The notes under the pieces: model-generated
The model's database searches: none
The model's input: the letters and a program-made list of their open reading frames with translations, nothing else
What the model was told of the DNA's origin: nothing
Shown here: piece after piece, positions 519 through 21,058 of the stretch
How positions within the stretch are numbered: the first letter of the stretch is position 1
Layout of the letters: every line of letters starts with the position of its first letter
Virus record (IMG/VR): IMGVR_UViG_3300017963_000786
Span: 1-22,315 of that record
DNA length: 22,315 nucleotides
DNA from: a virus
Direction: 5' to 3' (one strand)
Translations under genes and position numbers: made by a program

Positions 519-956
519 TTACCGGAAAAGGTCCCGGACCGCTTCAAAAAGAGCTATTCGCTTTTTGCGGTTGGGGCCTAAAATGTCTATTAGCCCGTCG
601 ATTCGAGAGATAACGCGTAAAACCGTAGTAGCGGCGACCCATGCTTTAAACTCGGGGCTACCCATTTTGAATATGATTAAATTTAAAACTTCGTCCGCTT
701 CGGTTTTAACGTAACAATTAACTTGACCCCTGTCCCGGTAGTCGGGACCGTAAATGGCGTAATTGTTTTCCATTAGATGATTAAAAGTTTCTTCGGGGTC
801 TTTTACTTCTAAGAGTAAATCAATATCAGACTCGGCGGTCGGTTGACCGAAGGCGACGGACCCGGTAACAAACCCGGCGGTCATAAAATCCATGGACATT
901 TTGTGTGTAATAGGGTCACACTTTTTAAGGCGCTTAAGGGCTTTTGATTTCTTCAT
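519..956 (-). CDS. Nucleotidyltransferase-fold protein (MNT/pol-beta superfamily)
   Basis: The 145-residue product carries a nucleotidyltransferase signature near residues 32-50: GSVAFG, then SDIDLLLEV. This is the G-S loop followed by the D-x-D metal-binding pair of minimal nucleotidyltransferases. Family members transfer NMP to a protein, RNA or small molecule, and phages often carry uncharacterised ones. The third carboxylate of the family may be missing: the candidate strand reads VLNLIIF, with Asn where Asp would be expected, so activity is uncertain. The C-terminal third is helical and ends basic. A strong ribosome binding site (AAAAAGGAGAA) precedes the ATG at 956. It is the last gene of the leftward operon. 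Confidence 0.75.
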   Translation of the reverse strand: MKKSKALKRLKKCDPITHKMSMDFMTAGFVTGSVAFGQPTAESDIDLLLEVKDPEETFNHLMENNYAIYGPDYRDRGQVNCYVKTEADEVLNLIIFKMGSPEFKAWVAATTVLRVISRIDGLIDILGPNRKKRIALFEAVRDLFR

Positions 957-3231: not shown

Positions 3232-4578
3232 CTATAAGATTATTCTGTTTTGAGTAATTCCGTGAGCGGTACGGGAAGCAAGACATACGCGCCTTTCTCC
3301 TGTTCGGTAAAGCCGGTATTCCGCGTATTTATGCAAGAAAACGTTAGCTCGATTTTTAAGAAAGTCGTAGGCGTATTCAAGGTCAACGGTCCGTAAGATT
3401 ACTTGGCGGTTTTCGTTCGTTATCGCGTAAGTAATGCAATGCTTTTCGATTGCGGGAATTAACCACGCCAAGTTGTCGAAGGATTCGCTTTTATCCCTAA
3501 TGTGAGATATGTACTTTTTGGGGATCGCGTTAATAAAATCCGCTTCCGTATGGATTGTACGACCGTATGTATTTGATTGATAGTCGGGGTCTTTGGAAAC
3601 GGCTTCGAACTCTTCCGCTTCGAATTCTTGGACGGATAAGTAATCGACGCCGAACAGCCACGCAAGCGCCCGATGGTTGTCGCGATACTCTTTAGTGACG
3701 CGGTAAAACTTGTCGTTCAAGTCCAGTATAAAAACCGGGTCCGGCTTTATCTTATAAAGAGAGTTCGCGCCCATACCGCCTTTGACCGATACGAGTTGAA
3801 CTAAGGTGTATTCCCCGTTCTTGATTTCGTGCCCGCAATCTCGACATTCTTTATCGTTCCAATGTCGGTCCGACCCACGGGCGCTTAGCATGGCGTTTCC
3901 ATTTCCACATTTGGGGCATACCGGAGCGGAGCCGTCCACTTGGATTACTTCCCCGTCTTCCTTCCCTTTAATAAATTCGCGAAGTGTGGCGACGTCTTCA
4001 ACAACCGGGGCGGCTTCCTTTTGAAAGTGGCGTTTAACGGTTTTTCGGGACCATATTTTCGGAGCGTGTCCGTCTTCTTTTAATTCGGCGGCGTGTTCTT
4101 GGGCGTCTTCTCTATATTCCCAACCGCTTTCCAATTTATCGTCAACAACGATGAAGGCGGTATATGCAGCATTGTCGATTATTGCGTCGCGGTCGGCTTG
4201 TTCGTAAGCTTTCGGATCGTAGGCCCGTTCGTTTTCCTTAGCGAACCATTTCGGAACGGCGATTTTATCGGTTTGTTCGTCGATCATATCGCGGACCCTG
4301 TCGACCCACTGTTTAAATGCATACCGCTCATTGAACGATTTGAAAGTCATTTTAGTTTCTTCGTCTTCTAAGTCTTCCGTCCAGTAAAGCGCGCCCTTTA
4401 CGCTATCCGTAAAGAATGCATGAAAAGAGCCGAACTTACGGTCGCCGTTGTCGAGCGTGTTCTCGGCGTACTTGTTAATGTAGTATCGGGCGACATCTTG
4501 TATAGTGTCACCTATATTGTAGCTCATTAAACGCTTTTCCATTTGTTCTTTAGTGGCGTTCGTTAGTCTAAATCCCAT
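3232..4578 (-). CDS. Large zinc-ribbon protein of unknown function (448 aa)
   Basis: This is the first and longest leftward gene. The start was chosen at 4578 (MGFRLTN) because GGGGGG lies seven bases upstream. An ATG at 4593 has no ribosome binding site. A central CPKC...CRDCG pair of knuckles (about residues 221, 224, 245, 248) marks a zinc ribbon that would bind nucleic acid or protein. The flanking regions are helical, charged and rich in W and Y. No polymerase, primase or helicase motif was recognised. Its position next to the strong leftward promoter suggests early, abundant expression. It could be a DNA-metabolism or host-takeover protein, but this is not shown. Confidence 0.65.
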   Translation of the reverse strand: MGFRLTNATKEQMEKRLMSYNIGDTIQDVARYYINKYAENTLDNGDRKFGSFHAFFTDSVKGALYWTEDLEDEETKMTFKSFNERYAFKQWVDRVRDMIDEQTDKIAVPKWFAKENERAYDPKAYEQADRDAIIDNAAYTAFIVVDDKLESGWEYREDAQEHAAELKEDGHAPKIWSRKTVKRHFQKEAAPVVEDVATLREFIKGKEDGEVIQVDGSAPVCPKCGNGNAMLSARGSDRHWNDKECRDCGHEIKNGEYTLVQLVSVKGGMGANSLYKIKPDPVFILDLNDKFYRVTKEYRDNHRALAWLFGVDYLSVQEFEAEEFEAVSKDPDYQSNTYGRTIHTEADFINAIPKKYISHIRDKSESFDNLAWLIPAIEKHCITYAITNENRQVILRTVDLEYAYDFLKNRANVFLHKYAEYRLYRTGERRVCLASRTAHGITQNRIIL

Positions 4579-4616
4579 TTTGCGGCCCCCCATCAGTTAA
4601 AGGTTAAAATAAAAAG

Positions 4617-14265: not shown

Positions 14266-14757
14266 ATGGCATACACGCCCGCCGAAACCGCGATATTAAA
14301 CGAAATAAAAGCCCGTTTGGAAAATATCACCGTTGCAAATGAGTATAATAACGAATTTAAAAAAATCGTACGCGGTCAAATGGAACCCTTTAAGGGCTAC
14401 GACTTACCGGCGGTCAATTATTATAAGCCGACCACGGAAGTGGAAAAAACCCCGTATGGAAAAAATAAAAATTTAATGTCGGTTGTTGTAGAAGTGCACT
14501 CGAAAACCCGCGACGATTATTTCGTCGACGTTGCGGATTCCTTAGCCGCCGATGTTGCAACCGGCTTATTTAGAGCAACGACCGCCCCCAAAGTGTCGGA
14601 CACGGAAAGTATAGCGTTAGGGGGAACGGTTCAAACTATAACGTATTTAGGTCATAGCCCATTTATTGGACCGGGCGAAAAGCCGTTTTGTGGTACGCTT
14701 ATACGCTTCGAAATACTCTTCGAAAGTAATATAGGCGATATGGAAAACTATAGTTAA
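14266..14757 (+). CDS. Tail terminator-like protein
   Basis: The 163-residue protein has an N-terminal helix (ETAILNEIKARLENI) and then beta strands including DLPAVNYYKP, SVVVEVHSKTRDDYF and GTLIRFEILFE. This is the gpU/gp17-type tail terminator layout, in which a hexameric ring caps the finished tail tube and docks to the head. Its place directly before the tail tube gene supports this. AGGAGAAGAAT precedes the ATG, inside the end of the previous gene. Confidence 0.7.
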   Translation: MAYTPAETAILNEIKARLENITVANEYNNEFKKIVRGQMEPFKGYDLPAVNYYKPTTEVEKTPYGKNKNLMSVVVEVHSKTRDDYFVDVADSLAADVATGLFRATTAPKVSDTESIALGGTVQTITYLGHSPFIGPGEKPFCGTLIRFEILFESNIGDMENYS

Positions 14758-14775: not shown

Positions 14776-15795
14776 ATGTCAACGTCGGAAAATGCAAAAA
14801 TTCAATTCGAAGCCGGTCAAACCCTTACCACATACGAGGCGATGACCGATTCGGGAGACCAACAAGTTTTTAATTCAACCGGGGCGGTATGGTCCGGTAA
14901 AGCAGGGACTACCCCTTCGGTTCGTCCTAACGGTATCGTAACCGGACGGACTCTTTTAACCGCGCAATCAACAAACGACGCGGTTAATATCGCGGCTTTT
15001 ACCGCGTATTCCAAAGGAGTATTACAAACCGTTTCCTCAACAAGTACAACCATAACAAGGACCGCGACGGCTACGAAATCCCAAGTTCATTCTGTTACAA
15101 TGGCGAGCGACGGTTCTATCGCGGTTGTAGAAGGGACAATAGGCGCGACACAAGCTTTTTCCGAAACCCGCGCCGCCGCCGGGGGACCTCCTTTGATTCC
15201 GGTCAACGATGTCGAACTCGGTCAAATTCGGGTAACAACCGCGACCGCCGCCGCCATTACCGCGAGCGAGATTTTTCAATTAGTCGGGACTCACACCGAA
15301 CGTTATGATTATCCCGGTTGGTCGGAAAACAACGTCGGCGACGGGATTAACTCCGACGAGTCCGGGAAAGTAAACGCCTATATTGAATTTGATTCGGCTT
15401 TACCTAACTCACATACGGGACCGGTTCCGAAAGCGGTTTATAATCAATATTATACTCCCGTTTACGCCGACTTGGGTCGGGCTTTGGACTTCGTCCCGGC
15501 GGAGAACACGCACTCGGTGTCCTCTTCTCAATACTACGGCGGGACTATCGGATCGAGGTCAACAACTTTGGGCCAAGCTTCATTTACCGCGCTTTTAGCT
15601 GACGGTGTAACGGATACGCTTGTGAGTTTAAAAGATGAAATTATAACAACAAAGATGTTCCCGGACCGCAATAAAACCCCGTATATCTTGACTCAAGGTA
15701 AATTGGGTTTGGCGCGGACTTTTCCGGTTGCCGATCAAAATCAAGCGGCGGCGACTCTCTCAAGTGAGACGGCTTCCGCCGAATTTTCAAGCTAA
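14776..15795 (+). CDS. Major tail (tube) protein
   Basis: The 339-residue protein is beta-rich and exceptionally rich in Ser, Thr and Ala (for example VSSTSTTITRTATATK). It follows the terminator and precedes the chaperone region, which is the tail tube position. No sheath gene is seen beside it, so a non-contractile tail is favoured. It is longer than many tube proteins and may hold an extra surface domain near the C-terminus. AAAGGAGAA precedes the ATG. It is the nearest upstream neighbour of the sulfotransferase-glycosyltransferase and has many possible O-linked sites. Confidence 0.7.
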   Translation: MSTSENAKIQFEAGQTLTTYEAMTDSGDQQVFNSTGAVWSGKAGTTPSVRPNGIVTGRTLLTAQSTNDAVNIAAFTAYSKGVLQTVSSTSTTITRTATATKSQVHSVTMASDGSIAVVEGTIGATQAFSETRAAAGGPPLIPVNDVELGQIRVTTATAAAITASEIFQLVGTHTERYDYPGWSENNVGDGINSDESGKVNAYIEFDSALPNSHTGPVPKAVYNQYYTPVYADLGRALDFVPAENTHSVSSSQYYGGTIGSRSTTLGQASFTALLADGVTDTLVSLKDEIITTKMFPDRNKTPYILTQGKLGLARTFPVADQNQAAATLSSETASAEFSS

Positions 15796-15831: not shown

Positions 15832-17556
15832 ATGATTTTAGTTACAGGTTATCCAAGATCGGGAACGGGCTACGCGGCGAAACTCCTTAACGGCGCGGGT
15901 GTGGGTGTGGGTCATGAAACCGTAAAAGAAGACGGGGCGGTTTCATGGCTTCACATTGCATCGGGGTCGGTCCCGTGGTTAGAGGGCGAAATCGAAACAA
16001 CCGAGTGGAGTAAAGTTATCCATTTGGTCCGTTGTCCCCTCGACGTTTTGTCATCCGCTCAAACCTTGAGCGATGCCGCGTTCGATTATATGTTTCGGTT
16101 TTTAGGAGAACATCCCGGCGGTGAACGCGGGCTACGTTGGTATATGTGGACGTTTTTAAAATGGACCGCATTAATTGAGGCGGAGCGCGATTATTATTTT
16201 AGGGTAGAGGATTTAAAAGACCCGGCGGTTTTAAAAATATTGTTGAGTATAACCGGCGGGACCCTTCCCGATTTATTTGTACTACCGCCGACAAATGTAA
16301 ATTCTCGGGCGCATCCACACTACACTTGGCTTGATTTAGAACTGGCGGACCCGGAACTATCAAAAGAGATTCTTGAATTGACCGCGAAGTATGGTTACTC
16401 AACTTTTAGATTCGGCGCGGTTATGATGGCTAAAGATGAGGCGCGTAATTTAGACCGTTGTCTTTCCTCTATTCGGGGAATCGTCGACGAGATTATTTTA
16501 ATTGATACCGGGTCGACGGACGACACGGTCGCAATTGCTCAATCGTACGGGGCGCGGATATTTCATTCGCCTTGGCGAGATAGTTTCAGTTTTCACCGTA
16601 ACGAAAGTTTAAATTATTCGTCGTGTGATTGGGTGATACAAATAGATTGCGACGAAGAATTAGTCGGCGATACTACCCAATTCCGAACATTTGTGGAAGC
16701 AGTTTCGAAGAGCAAATATAATGCGATGGCTGTTTTATTACGCGATATACACCAAGGCCGAACTACTATGCAATTTAACGCCGCCCGTATTTTTAAACGT
16801 GGGGCGGTCCACTTTGAGGACATCGTCCATAATCGCCCGGTATTTGTAGGCGATGCGGCTATGTCTTCGGACGAACCAGTTTTTTGGTTGCATCATTACG
16901 GGTACGACTTGACCCCGGAAAAGAAAGCGGCAAAATTAGACCGGACAAAAAGATTACTCCTTAAACGAATTACAGATAACCCGAAAGACGCCGACGCATA
17001 TTTTTATTTATCTCAAGTTGAAGGCGAATTAGGGAACACGGAAGAGGTTTTACACTTATGCGAAACCTATATTCAATATCGGGATATATGCACAAAGTTT
17101 AATCGGAGTGTTTTTTATACCCACTTGCAAGCTTTGGAAGCAATCAAGGGTTTGGGCGAAGAGTACGAAGCGGCGTTACATAAGTACATGAATGAACTAC
17201 CTAACGATTTAGATATAACATTTACCGCGATAGAGTACGCTGCAAAAGTTAAGAACATTAAACTCTTAAGGACCGCCGCCGAAAAATTCGTTGAATTGTA
17301 TTCGGTTTATTTAAAAGACTCACACACGCAAGCGAGCCGCTTTGTTTATACTTCCCGACCGGAATGTTTAGCAACGGCTTTGTTTTATGCGTCGACGTTG
17401 GCGTTTTCAACGGGGATAGAAGCACTAAAAAGTTTTAGCGCGGTACTACCTAAAACCATGGAAGGGTACAAGAATAGGGCGATAGAAGACATGCACACCG
17501 CATGTAATAATTTAGGAATAACTTGGAAGTACATACAAAGAGAAGAGGGGGTTTAA
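15832..17556 (+). CDS. Sulfotransferase-like / GT2 glycosyltransferase / helical-repeat fusion protein
   Basis: The 574-residue protein has three parts. Residues 1-190 look like a PAPS sulfotransferase: a GYPRSGTGY phosphate loop (6-14) and LVRCPLDVLSS (65-75) at the 3'-phosphate site. Residues 195-358 are a GT2 glycosyltransferase: MMAKDEARNL (198-207), IDTGSTDDT (224-232), the metal-binding DCD (272-274) and HHYGY (354-358). Residues 365-574 are helical, TPR-like and probably bind substrate. Such GT-TPR proteins glycosylate proteins in the cytoplasm. The gene lies 36 bases after the tube gene, abuts the chaperone ATG, and shares its neighbours' codon use. Confidence 0.85.
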   Translation: MILVTGYPRSGTGYAAKLLNGAGVGVGHETVKEDGAVSWLHIASGSVPWLEGEIETTEWSKVIHLVRCPLDVLSSAQTLSDAAFDYMFRFLGEHPGGERGLRWYMWTFLKWTALIEAERDYYFRVEDLKDPAVLKILLSITGGTLPDLFVLPPTNVNSRAHPHYTWLDLELADPELSKEILELTAKYGYSTFRFGAVMMAKDEARNLDRCLSSIRGIVDEIILIDTGSTDDTVAIAQSYGARIFHSPWRDSFSFHRNESLNYSSCDWVIQIDCDEELVGDTTQFRTFVEAVSKSKYNAMAVLLRDIHQGRTTMQFNAARIFKRGAVHFEDIVHNRPVFVGDAAMSSDEPVFWLHHYGYDLTPEKKAAKLDRTKRLLLKRITDNPKDADAYFYLSQVEGELGNTEEVLHLCETYIQYRDICTKFNRSVFYTHLQALEAIKGLGEEYEAALHKYMNELPNDLDITFTAIEYAAKVKNIKLLRTAAEKFVELYSVYLKDSHTQASRFVYTSRPECLATALFYASTLAFSTGIEALKSFSAVLPKTMEGYKNRAIEDMHTACNNLGITWKYIQREEGV

Positions 17557-17994
17557 ATGGGTTTTAATATTGATAAATTTAGGAATGCTAAAACGAAACC
17601 AAGAACCGATGAATTAGAAATAGAAGTATTAAAAAGCTTTTTCGAGGAAGGCGAAAAACCTATTTTTAAAATGCGGAACCTTACCGGGCATGAACTCGCC
17701 GAGTGTCGGGAAGCGGTTACCGCTAACAAACAATTAAGGGCTTTGGTTGAAAGTTTAATGTCGGAAAACGCTTTAGATAAGGCGAAAGCGATTTGTGAAA
17801 GTATGGGTTTGGGAAGCGACAAGACGCCGGGTGATTTGGTTAACCGAATAGGGATGTTAAAGCACGGGCTAATTGAACCCAAATTCACTAACGAGGATTC
17901 CGTCCGGCTCGCTTCACTTTTCCCGACTCAATTTTATCAATTAACAAACCGCATTGTTGAATTGACGGGACTCGGGGCGGAATTGGGGGAATAG
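17557..17994 (+). CDS. Tail assembly chaperone, short form (gpG-like)
   Basis: The 145-residue protein is helical, charged and placed just before the tape measure gene, which is the standard position of the lambda gpG-type chaperone. It should bind the tape measure during tail assembly. It begins directly after the stop of the glycosyltransferase gene, with GAGGGGG as ribosome binding site. Its TAG is preceded by GGGGGAA, and the -1 frame continues without stops to the tape measure start, as expected for the G/GT pair. Confidence 0.75.
   Translation: MGFNIDKFRNAKTKPRTDELEIEVLKSFFEEGEKPIFKMRNLTGHELAECREAVTANKQLRALVESLMSENALDKAKAICESMGLGSDKTPGDLVNRIGMLKHGLIEPKFTNEDSVRLASLFPTQFYQLTNRIVELTGLGAELGE
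17985..17991 (+). promoter_or_regulatory. Candidate -1 frameshift slippery site GGGGGAA
   Basis: Read as G GGG GAA in the G frame, the heptamer lies directly before the TAG at 17992. The P-site GGG re-pairs perfectly after a one-base backward slip and the A-site GAA re-pairs as GGA with one G-U. A weak hairpin (CGACC 18008-18012, GGTCG 18022-18026) lies 16 bases downstream, longer than the usual spacing. The -1 frame has a TGA at 17958-17960, so slippage must happen between there and the TAG. Confidence 0.55.
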
Positions 17995-18176
17995 ACCGCC
18001 TTTGGAACGACCCCGACGTTAGGTCGAGTATGGCTTTAGCGTATGGAGGCGGGTTAGGGGCACAACGTTTTTTATACGAAGTACGCCCGGATATTTTCCC
18101 CCAAGGGTTTTTGACGGTAGTAGAAACGGAATTATGGTCAAGGTTTATTACTTATATAAAAAGGAAAACTAAATAA
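17991..18176 (+). CDS. Frameshift extension of the tail chaperone (T frame of gpGT-like protein)
   Basis: The -1 frame after the slip encodes 61 residues (beginning IDRLWNDPD, with ALAYGGGLGAQRFLYEVRPD in the middle and ending YIKRKTK). It stops at TAA 18174-18176, overlapping the tape measure ATG as TAATG. No ribosome binding site precedes the internal ATG, so it is best read as a C-terminal extension of the 145-residue protein, giving about 206 residues. In lambda-like phages the extension recruits tube subunits to the chaperone-tape measure complex. Without it, 181 bases of this dense operon would be empty. Confidence 0.65.
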   Translation: MDRLWNDPDVRSSMALAYGGGLGAQRFLYEVRPDIFPQGFLTVVETELWSRFITYIKRKTK

Positions 18177-21058
18177 TGGCGAATGTACGAAAAACAATCG
18201 AGATTATTTTTCAAGGGGTCGACAATGTATCCGCGTCAATTAGTGATATATCCGATTCCCTTTCGGCTTTCGGGGGAAAAGTCGAAGCAATCGCCGAACC
18301 GTTTTCAAAATTAGCGGACGGAGTACTCGCAACCGATGCCGCTTTGCTCGCTTTAGCGGCGGGCGGTTTAACTTACGCTTTTTCGAAATCTAAAGAGTTT
18401 GAAAACGCTTTAATTGAATTGAAAAAAGTTACAGACGGGAATCAAGAGTCGGTAGAAACCGCCCGCCTAAATGCCTTAGCCCTTTCGGACCAATACGGGG
18501 AATCGTCGACGCGGATTTTAGATTCGACCTCAAGTTTTATCCAAGCCGGTTACAATATCGAAGAGGCTATGGGCTTGACTAAGTCGTCGATGGACTTAGT
18601 TATCGCGGGCGGTCTTGAGGCGTCCCAATCGAGCGAATTGCTTATCGCTACCCTAAAAGGGTTCGACGCGCCCGCCACGGACGCGGCGCGGGTTATCGAT
18701 ATTCTAAATTCGGTGAGTAATAAATATGCAACCGACGTTGAGCAATTAGCGCGCGGTATGAGTAAAATCGCGCCGATTGCTCAACTTATGGGTTTCTCTT
18801 TTGAAGAGACCGCCGGTTTATTAACTCCGGTTATCGAGGTTTTTCGTTCCGGGGACGAAGCCGCCGTCGCGCTTAAGACGGGCCTTTTAAAACTGATAGA
18901 CGACGCAAAGCCCGTTAAAGACGCGCTCGCCGCGATTGGGGTTTCTCAAACCGATTTAAACGGTAAACTTCGGTCCGGTAAAGATGTACTTTTAGATGTC
19001 GCGGAAGCCTTTAAAACGGCGGACGAGAATGATAAATTATTTTTAACTTCCCAATTAGTGGGGTTAGAGCAATCCGCTCGTATGGTTACGGTTTTTGATA
19101 ATCTCGCGAAGTATACCGGAATCGTAGGCGTGGCGCTCAACTCCGCCGGGTCCGCCGCCGCCGAAGTCGCTTTACGGTTAGAAAGCGCGGAAATAGCCGT
19201 CAATCGTTTTACTACCGGTTTCGAGAATCTCGGAATTGCCATCGGGGACGAATTCCGGGTCGCCGCCGTTGGCGCAATAAACGGAATGACAGATATCGAG
19301 AACGCTATCCGGGAAGGCGTAACAAGTGGAGCGTTCGAACCCCTATTCACTTTAATTAGTGACTTTGCAAACGAAGCGGGATTCCTTTTTAGAGACATCG
19401 CGAAGGCGTTACCCGAAGCATTTTTAAAATTAGACTATACTGGAATAGGCGAAAGCTTTTCCGCGATTCGGGAAACAATAAGCGGCTTATTCGATGGGTT
19501 AGACTTAGGGGACCCGGACGACTTAGCTGTCGCAATGCAAAAAGTTATCGATACAATCGAAGCCTTAATCCGCGTTACCGACGGAATGATAGAAGGTTTT
19601 AAACCCTTCTTTGACGCTATCGGGCAAGCGATAACGGAAGTAAATAGCTTAGACGATGAGACCGCGAAAGCCTTCGGACAATTACTCGCATCGGCTAAAC
19701 TCGTTACGGACGCGGGCGTCGCTATTGCCGGGGCTTTCTTTGCCATTCAACAAAGCGGCGCGCAAATGTCGAGCGTTTTTGATTTAGTTATCGGGGCAAT
19801 AACGACGGTTTGGAATACCGCGCAATTCGCGTTTTCCGCCATCGCTTCCACTATCGTGGATACCGTAGCGGCGATTTTAACCGGGGTTAACGTTCTCTTT
19901 GAAGGAATCCCGGATATAGCCGTCGAACTTGTACCGGGTTTAAAAGGCTTTAAAGAGGGTTTGCGGGACGTAACGCAAGAAGTACAAGCGTACGGAAGGG
20001 CTATCAAGGAAGACGCCACGAACCAATTTAAAGAGGGGATAGGCGGCGCGGCGCGGGCCTTAAGTGTTTTTACTGGCGGGGCTAAAGACGCCGCCGAAAG
20101 CGCGGATACCTTAAAGAACGCGGTTAACGGAGTTCCGACCGATAAAGTTTTAACCTTAGATGTATCGGTGTCTGACGAGTTTTTAGAAATCCCGGAAACG
20201 ATAGACGCAATACCACTTGAAAAGACCATCGTTTTTAGTGCGGACGGTACGCAGTTAACCGACACATATGACGCCTTGACGGACCTCGACGGGACAGAAT
20301 TAGAATTTATCATAACGGCGGACGATGAAGCCTTAATAAAAGCCGAAGCCGAAATTGATATACTCGCAAACCGCCCTTATGAAATTAACCTCGAAACCTC
20401 TTTAGGAATCGAAGACGCCAAAGAGCGATTAGAAGATTTAAAGCGCGCCGCTGCTACGCTTAAGAATGACCTCCAATTCCAATCGGCGGTGAGCGTTTCG
20501 GACCGGGAAGACCTAACTTCTTTAGAACGTCAAGCGGAAGAGTTAGAGAAAGCGCTCAAGATCAAAGCCAAGGTAGATAAGAGCGACGCAGTTAAAGAAA
20601 TTGACCGAATGAAATTAAGGGCCAAAGCTTTAGATTCTGCTTTTGAATACAAGGCTAAAGTGGATGTCGCCGAAATCGAAGCCGCCGCCGCCGTTACCCA
20701 AGCGGCGTTCGAGTCGATTGGTCAAGGGCTTGCAAGTTCCGGCGACATCTTCGGGTCGTTGGCGGGCGCGTATGCTACCGCTCGCTATGGGTCACAAAGG
20801 GACTTTTTAGAAAGACAAATGAGGGAAGAAAGCGACCGCCGAGAAGAGCAATTAGAATTACAACGGGACTTAATCGAACAACAAATCGCGTATTACGAAG
20901 CCAAGCGTGAAGCCGCCGAACGGGGCCAAGCGTTAATCGAGGTTAACGGGACAGGATTACAACCGCATTTAGAAGCAATTATGTGGGAAGTACTCGCCGC
21001 TATTCAAGTACGCGCAAATGAAGAGGGGCAAGCTGCCCTGTTAGGTTTAAGCTTATGA
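18176..21058 (+). CDS. Tape measure protein
   Basis: The 960-residue protein sets tail length and later helps DNA enter the cell. The N-terminal third follows the TP901-type tape measure pattern (SKSKEFENALIELKKV, SSTRILDSTSSFIQAG, LARGMSKIAPIAQLMGFSFEE). Residues about 500-590 are strongly hydrophobic, as expected for a membrane-inserting core. Coiled-coil segments follow (about 750-830 and 875-920). The end, VNGTGLQPHLEAIMWEVLAAI, may anchor it to the tail tip. At roughly 1.5 angstroms per residue it predicts a tail near 140 nm. It starts by TAATG coupling to the chaperone extension. Confidence 0.9.
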   Translation: MANVRKTIEIIFQGVDNVSASISDISDSLSAFGGKVEAIAEPFSKLADGVLATDAALLALAAGGLTYAFSKSKEFENALIELKKVTDGNQESVETARLNALALSDQYGESSTRILDSTSSFIQAGYNIEEAMGLTKSSMDLVIAGGLEASQSSELLIATLKGFDAPATDAARVIDILNSVSNKYATDVEQLARGMSKIAPIAQLMGFSFEETAGLLTPVIEVFRSGDEAAVALKTGLLKLIDDAKPVKDALAAIGVSQTDLNGKLRSGKDVLLDVAEAFKTADENDKLFLTSQLVGLEQSARMVTVFDNLAKYTGIVGVALNSAGSAAAEVALRLESAEIAVNRFTTGFENLGIAIGDEFRVAAVGAINGMTDIENAIREGVTSGAFEPLFTLISDFANEAGFLFRDIAKALPEAFLKLDYTGIGESFSAIRETISGLFDGLDLGDPDDLAVAMQKVIDTIEALIRVTDGMIEGFKPFFDAIGQAITEVNSLDDETAKAFGQLLASAKLVTDAGVAIAGAFFAIQQSGAQMSSVFDLVIGAITTVWNTAQFAFSAIASTIVDTVAAILTGVNVLFEGIPDIAVELVPGLKGFKEGLRDVTQEVQAYGRAIKEDATNQFKEGIGGAARALSVFTGGAKDAAESADTLKNAVNGVPTDKVLTLDVSVSDEFLEIPETIDAIPLEKTIVFSADGTQLTDTYDALTDLDGTELEFIITADDEALIKAEAEIDILANRPYEINLETSLGIEDAKERLEDLKRAAATLKNDLQFQSAVSVSDREDLTSLERQAEELEKALKIKAKVDKSDAVKEIDRMKLRAKALDSAFEYKAKVDVAEIEAAAAVTQAAFESIGQGLASSGDIFGSLAGAYATARYGSQRDFLERQMREESDRREEQLELQRDLIEQQIAYYEAKREAAERGQALIEVNGTGLQPHLEAIMWEVLAAIQVRANEEGQAALLGLSL

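Follow-up and report, generated by a model that had tools for sequence, protein, structure and literature searches.

In the present study, a single gene directly behind the tail-tube gene of a virus contig was found to join a sulfotransferase-like domain, a family-2 glycosyltransferase (GT2) and a helical repeat tail, and the same fusion adjoins the tube gene in five further distinct phage contigs. Sequence, predicted structure and gene context make it reasonably probable, in our judgement, that the product is a cytoplasmic two-step enzyme which attaches sugar to the tail-tube protein and completes the glycan through an exchangeable module, in this case a sulfating one. The occurrence of a tube-adjacent GT2 with an exchanged second enzyme in sister phages suggests that these phages provide their tails with sugar coats of variable kind. 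The DNA analysed, called the window below, is an IMG/VR virus contig of 22,315 bases and is probably a fragment.

Results

The fusion gene in the late operon

The open reading frame of the fusion is intact from ATG to TAA, and the features of the gene and its neighbours are collected in Table 1. The genes of the window run in the order terminase, portal, protease, major capsid, connectors, terminator, tube, fusion, chaperone and tape measure, and the chaperone gene begins one base past the fusion stop codon. The codon use of the fusion gene fits that of the operon (r 0.921 against the rest), and its GC content is 0.446 against 0.460 for the window. Homologues in Marinobacter phage PS3 and in phage ctUtU524 confirm the tail gene order; there the chaperone gene comes straight after the tube gene, with no enzyme gene in between, and the fusion is therefore an extra gene at a syntenic position. 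The first-pass annotation had described one 574-residue protein with a PAPS-type loop, a GT2 domain and a helical repeat tail, lying between tube and chaperone genes with operon-like codon use, and the coordinates, motifs, predicted fold and comparative gene order all bear this description out.

Table 1. Features of the fusion gene and its neighbours, with positions in the window
Feature	Position	Strand	Basis
Tail terminator	14266..14757	+	phrog_5078, 0.0018; conserved order
Tail-tube (major tail) protein, 339 aa, proposed acceptor	14776..15795	+	Gene order terminator-tube-chaperone-TMP; phrog_30644 (unknown function)
Sulfotransferase-GT2-helical repeat fusion protein, 574 aa	15832..17556	+	Open reading frame; AlphaFold pLDDT 93.4; five further distinct homologous fusions
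Sulfotransferase-like domain, residues 1-190	15832..16401	+	Conserved motifs; model pLDDT 93.9; top Foldseek PDB matches are sulfotransferases
5'-phosphosulfate loop GYPRSGTGY (residues 6-14), Arg9 at the PSB Lys/Arg position	15847..15873	+	Motif definition PMC11625862
GHE motif (residues 27-29)	15910..15918	+	H28 and E29 invariant
3'-phosphate motif RCPLDVLSS (residues 67-75), fits RXXXDXXXS	16030..16056	+	Motif definition PMC11625862
GT-A family-2 glycosyltransferase domain (residues ~193-360)	16408..16911	+	PF00535, 3e-14; phmmer 7msk/22ao/7msp; Foldseek
DXD motif D272-C273-D274	16645..16653	+	D272, D274 and E275 invariant in six fusions
C-terminal helical repeat (TPR-like) tail	16912..17544	+	AlphaFold model; sequence TPR score below threshold
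Tail assembly chaperone	17557..17994	+	XkdN-like, weak; homologues in related loci; own ribosome-binding site within the end of the fusion gene
Tape measure protein (TMP)	18176..21058	+	PF10145, 3e-36

Some further observations were made on the window itself. The chaperone gene ends in ...GGGGGAATAG (17980-18176), and from there the -1 frame runs on as far as a stop codon (18174-18176) lying across the beginning of the TMP gene. A -1 reading frame at the chaperone end is likewise present in five relatives (L191, L105, L175, L166 and L202), and the arrangement looks like the usual G/GT programmed frameshift of tail chaperones. Two genes lie on the strand opposite to the late operon, namely 3232-4593 (-), for a 453-aa protein with weak zinc-ribbon matches, and 519-956 (-), for a small nucleotidyltransferase-like protein slightly below the PF01909 cut-off.

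The sulfotransferase-like domain

Sulfotransferases bind PAPS through a 5'-phosphosulfate loop (PSB) with a catalytic Lys or Arg after the first strand and through the pattern RXXXDXXXS for the 3'-phosphate (reviewed in PMC11625862). The N-terminal domain has both the loop, with Arg, and the RXXXDXXXS pattern, and its model presents an alpha/beta PAPS-binding fold. Against PF13469 (Sulfotransfer_3) it scored 14.2 bits, below the curated cut-off of 27, and the copy in the relative L191 reached 25.6 bits, also below this threshold. Related domains of 170-240 aa were recovered from about 40 viral loci, and they have in common a GxPR[ST]GTG[YF] loop, GHE, RxP...S, an [FY][KR]xE strand and NxR. Since the L191 copy scores 25.6 bits and the motifs recur in about 40 viral relatives, the likeness to sulfotransferases is not a matter of chance. 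Among 24 aligned relatives R9, H28, E29, R67, P69, E126, N157 and Y189 are invariant; in the six fusions R67 and S75 are invariant and D71 varies. E29 or H28 would be the candidate catalytic base.

Structure prediction had been named in the first-pass annotation as a check on both domains. When the model of the N-terminal domain alone was compared with the PDB by Foldseek, the seven best matches were sulfotransferases (best E 1.5e-3, probability up to 0.93), and the matches, of modest E-value, include SULT4A1, Teg14, SULT1C2, StaL, plant SOT18 and NDST1. Sequence profiles of the family gave weak sulfotransferase matches amid noise in the PDB, and in profile-profile comparison with the separate sulfotransferases that flank the tube gene in other phages the P-loop stretch alone matched (probability 73). 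On sequence and model we take the domain as a minimal member of the PAPS sulfotransferase superfamily that is presumably active. In five other loci (L016, L022, L024, L041 and L055) a sulfotransferase-like domain is fused behind an N-terminal region of about 200 aa, whose conserved KCHPD(K/R)L-like stretch recalls J domains; the one region checked had no Pfam match.

The glycosyltransferase domain and the helical tail

The GT2 domain passes the Pfam threshold of PF00535 with 53.7 bits against a cut-off of 23.3, carries the DXD motif and matched GT-A enzymes in Foldseek. The HHYGY motif lies at residues 354-358 (16891-16905). Behind the domain, the full-length model has helical hairpins over residues 362-560, and the TPR score of the tail is poor at the sequence level (PF13431, E 0.034). 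Foldseek of the full model against the PDB ranked 7msk, 7msn and 7msp (ThuS/SunS) first, which agrees with the SunS-type arrangement of glycosyltransferase and tail that had been noticed at the outset; membership in the SunS family proper (TIGR04195) was rejected, with 72.2 bits against an equivalog cut-off of 350. In addition, phmmer of the domain matched GmaR (22ao, 1.5e-20), in which a TPR-antirepressor part of about 460 residues stands against only about 210 residues after the GT domain here.

The same fusion and its exchanged modules in related phages

Single-sequence scans of viral and genome contigs gave no match, and alignment-based scans were required; the fusions were located with profiles built for this analysis. 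The survey took in 79 viral loci from the GT2-alignment scan and, from the tube scan, the best 80 of 251 tube relatives, a sample that leans to close kin. A plasmid search returned noise only, and an annotated phage collection yielded no fusion, only GT-only matches and one stand-alone sulfotransferase, in cyanophage C48C1. On bacterial chromosomes a pattern-based, non-exhaustive search found no fusion of this type.

A search for the same domain pair beside tube genes elsewhere, as the first-pass annotation had advised, was successful. The five further distinct contigs are L191, L162, L179, L105 (= L189) and L201 (= L202), and with the window they make six fusions, all of which adjoin the tube gene. 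Four of them follow it (window, L191, L162 and L179), and the other two precede it (L105 and L201). The L191 fusion is 58% identical to that of the window over its length, and its tube protein 71%. The pairing had been thought not usual in one gene, and in this phage group it is no one-off.

The second enzyme is exchanged in sister phages. At least nine distinct phages (L093, L095, L096, L102, L163, L169, L177, L181, L182-185) have a GT4-GT2 fusion just upstream of the tube gene; in L097, L111 and L117 such a fusion follows the terminator gene and the contig stretch ends before any tube gene. In three loci (L167, L195 and L205) the tube gene lies between a GT2 gene on its upstream side and a stand-alone sulfotransferase gene on its downstream side, and the sulfotransferases of L167 and L205 pass the PF13469 cut-off. 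A hexapeptide acyltransferase together with GT2 comes after the tube in L161, L186 and L192, and in some sister phages the tube-side GT2 stands alone. In the tube-centred loci (best 80 of 251 relatives) 23 of the 24 GT2 reading frames are tube-adjacent, and among the same loci a GT2 neighbour is present at 17 of the 44 distinct tube genes with both flanks visible. In phages without GT2 (L003, 18577-19982, and upstream of the tube in L209, L215, L218 and L227), a small methyltransferase and an MptE/DUF115-like protein are encoded between the capsid and tube genes, possibly as another decoration pair.

The tube protein and the history of the fusion

The tube protein was identified by its place among the tail genes; phrog_30644, the family to which it belongs, carries no annotation, and a PDB search with it gave no match. 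Ser and Thr make up 24% of the window tube, which the first-pass annotation had called Ser/Thr-rich; relatives without any GT are nearly as rich, with a mean of 20.8% against 21.7-22.0% with a GT. The richness is uninformative, and we rejected it as a sign of glycosylation. Two alignment columns with Ser, Thr or Tyr (T62 and T291 in the window protein) are conserved in 96-100% of GT-bearing tubes and in 24% of the others, a difference that is confounded by relatedness. In the wider tube family a GT is absent from most phages, so decoration of the tail would be dispensable, and on the tube tree the GT-bearing and GT-less states require two changes.

In the GT2 tree the GT4 fusions form one clade and the sulfotransferase fusions do not. 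A single origin of the fusion, with the GT2 domains of all six as one clade, was rejected (AU p 0.016); thus either sulfotransferase and GT2 were fused at least twice, or recombination replaced the GT2 part. The sulfotransferase-domain tree is compatible with single and with multiple fusion origins. Furthermore, pairwise distances of GT2 correlate with those of the tube protein at r 0.71, of the chaperone at 0.45 and of the TMP at 0.33.

The wider GT2 family

Outside the tube group, viral GT2 relatives have as neighbours either a gene of the major head protein (phrog_212, phrog_334) or another gene of the tail (phrog_290, phrog_1407), and sugar-nucleotide enzymes accompany some of them. In L092, L094 and L098 the phage GT2 adjoins the major head protein and L109 has a similar operon; these four loci include genes for a GFO/IDH oxidoreductase, an NAD epimerase or a hexapeptide transferase, as if the phages made their own sugar nucleotide. 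In bacteria, a flagellin gene comes directly after the GT2-TPR relative in 11 of 22 sampled loci (L243, L245, L247, L248, L250, L252, L253 and L256-L259), and Pfam confirmed the flagellin in the two loci tested. The hosts are Deltaproteobacteria, Syntrophales, Zixibacteria and KSB1 genomes, and some of the proteins have several GT2 matches. The family thus neighbours flagellin genes in bacterial genomes and tube or capsid genes in phage genomes, and the simplest reading is that it modifies abundant self-assembling proteins.

Discussion

Family and context point to the following order of events. The SunS/GmaR-like GT2 would add a sugar from a nucleotide sugar to the newly made tube protein before polymerisation, with the helical tail holding the acceptor, and the N-terminal domain would then cap this sugar with sulfate from host PAPS. 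The tail would thereby be covered along its length with negative charge. The second module that takes its place in sister phages is a GT4, which would extend the sugar chain, or a separate sulfotransferase, or else an acyltransferase of the hexapeptide type. As to the benefit for the phage, shielding of the tail and altered adsorption are our guesses. More tentatively, and somewhat short of an even chance in our view, the tails of this phage group consist of glycoprotein capped with sulfate or in some other way, and the flanks of the tube gene act as a swappable tail-glycan cassette, in which a constant GT2 initiator is combined with exchangeable finishers (sulfotransferase, GT4 or acyltransferase) and the chemistry of the tail surface is changed by recombination, much as bacteria switch their flagellin or O-antigen glycans.

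The first-pass annotation had left the target between a virion protein, tube or fibre, and a host surface protein. Phage glycosyltransferases often modify host surface molecules, and the enzyme may act on LPS, capsule or flagellin, causing superinfection exclusion or altered motility, at a spot beside the tube gene that tolerates extra genes. The GT2-tube adjacency could indeed stem from an insertion-tolerant site, the flagellin neighbours of the bacterial relatives make host flagellin a thinkable acceptor, and the gene is absent from many relatives, as expected for a moron. We nevertheless regard a host-surface target as unlikely, because the gene keeps with the tube gene though sides and partners switch, lies in the late operon abutting the chaperone gene, diverges in step with the tube protein and has distant viral relatives beside capsid genes. 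Gtr-type lysogenic conversion relies on a membrane-bound glycosyltransferase with a flippase partner; here the GT domain and the part behind it have no membrane or hydrophobic segment, and the window, itself an incomplete contig, has no recognised gene for a flippase or Gtr partner.

Decoration of another virion protein of the operon, such as the capsid, a fibre or another part of the tail, would agree with the homologues beside major head proteins (phrog_212, phrog_334), but every fusion in this phage group adjoins the tube and not the capsid gene, which makes this reading distinctly improbable. The adjacency in 23 of 24 cases, the distance correlation of r 0.71 and the capsid and flagellin neighbours give strong contextual support to a virion target, above all the tube, and a fibre, like the host surface, is less favoured. 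Hypermodification of the phage DNA with sugar and sulfate appears very improbable: nucleotide modification based on phage glycosyl- and sulfotransferases has been reported before, according to PMC10829341, but the closest solved relatives use peptide or protein substrates, family scans of the window proteins recognised no base-modification genes, and the gene has a late structural location.

If glycosylation and sulfation of the tube protein hold true, some tailed phages have sulfated glycoprotein tails, for which we found no phage report in the open-access papers searched. A constant glycosyltransferase with swappable finishers beside one structural gene would make the purpose of virion coats accessible to genetics, and phage tail decoration and bacterial flagellin glycosylation would be united in one enzyme family serving self-assembling tubes.

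Comparison with known systems

The sulfotransferase-like domain resembles the NodH-type sulfotransferases of PF13469 in the Arg of the PSB with RXG, the RXXXDXXXS pattern of the PB and the alpha/beta fold, but differs from them in being minimal (about 190 aa), below the family threshold, fused to a glycosyltransferase and endowed with additional conserved GHE and N-x-R motifs. The SunS/ThuS S-glycosyltransferases (7msk, 7msn, 7msp) likewise consist of a GT-A GT2 followed by a helical repeat region and act on peptide acceptors, and SunS itself is encoded by a phage (SPbeta); identity with them is 17-19%, they are without a sulfotransferase domain and they adjoin a bacteriocin rather than a tail gene. 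GmaR, which attaches GlcNAc to flagellin (PMC9638930), shares the GT2 and TPR parts and a protein acceptor that polymerises into a filament, whereas this flagellin O-GlcNAc transferase of 637 aa has a large C-terminal antirepressor part and is without a sulfotransferase domain (PMC9638930).

The closest precedent in phages is given by mycobacteriophages Che8, Corndog and Myrna, whose phage-coded glycosyltransferases glycosylate the tail tube and the capsid of the virion (Freeman et al. 2023, cited after PMC12363180, PMC12619734 and PMC11600133). A phage-coded glycosyltransferase is found here as well, and in addition it is genetically tied to the tube or capsid gene. The mycobacteriophage reports consulted mention neither a sulfotransferase nor a swappable fused module, and searches of open-access papers found no report of a sulfotransferase-glycosyltransferase fusion or a tube-flanking cassette. 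Virion glycosylation is thus already known, and what seems to be new is the sulfotransferase partner, its fusion to the glycosyltransferase and the exchangeable cassette around one structural gene.
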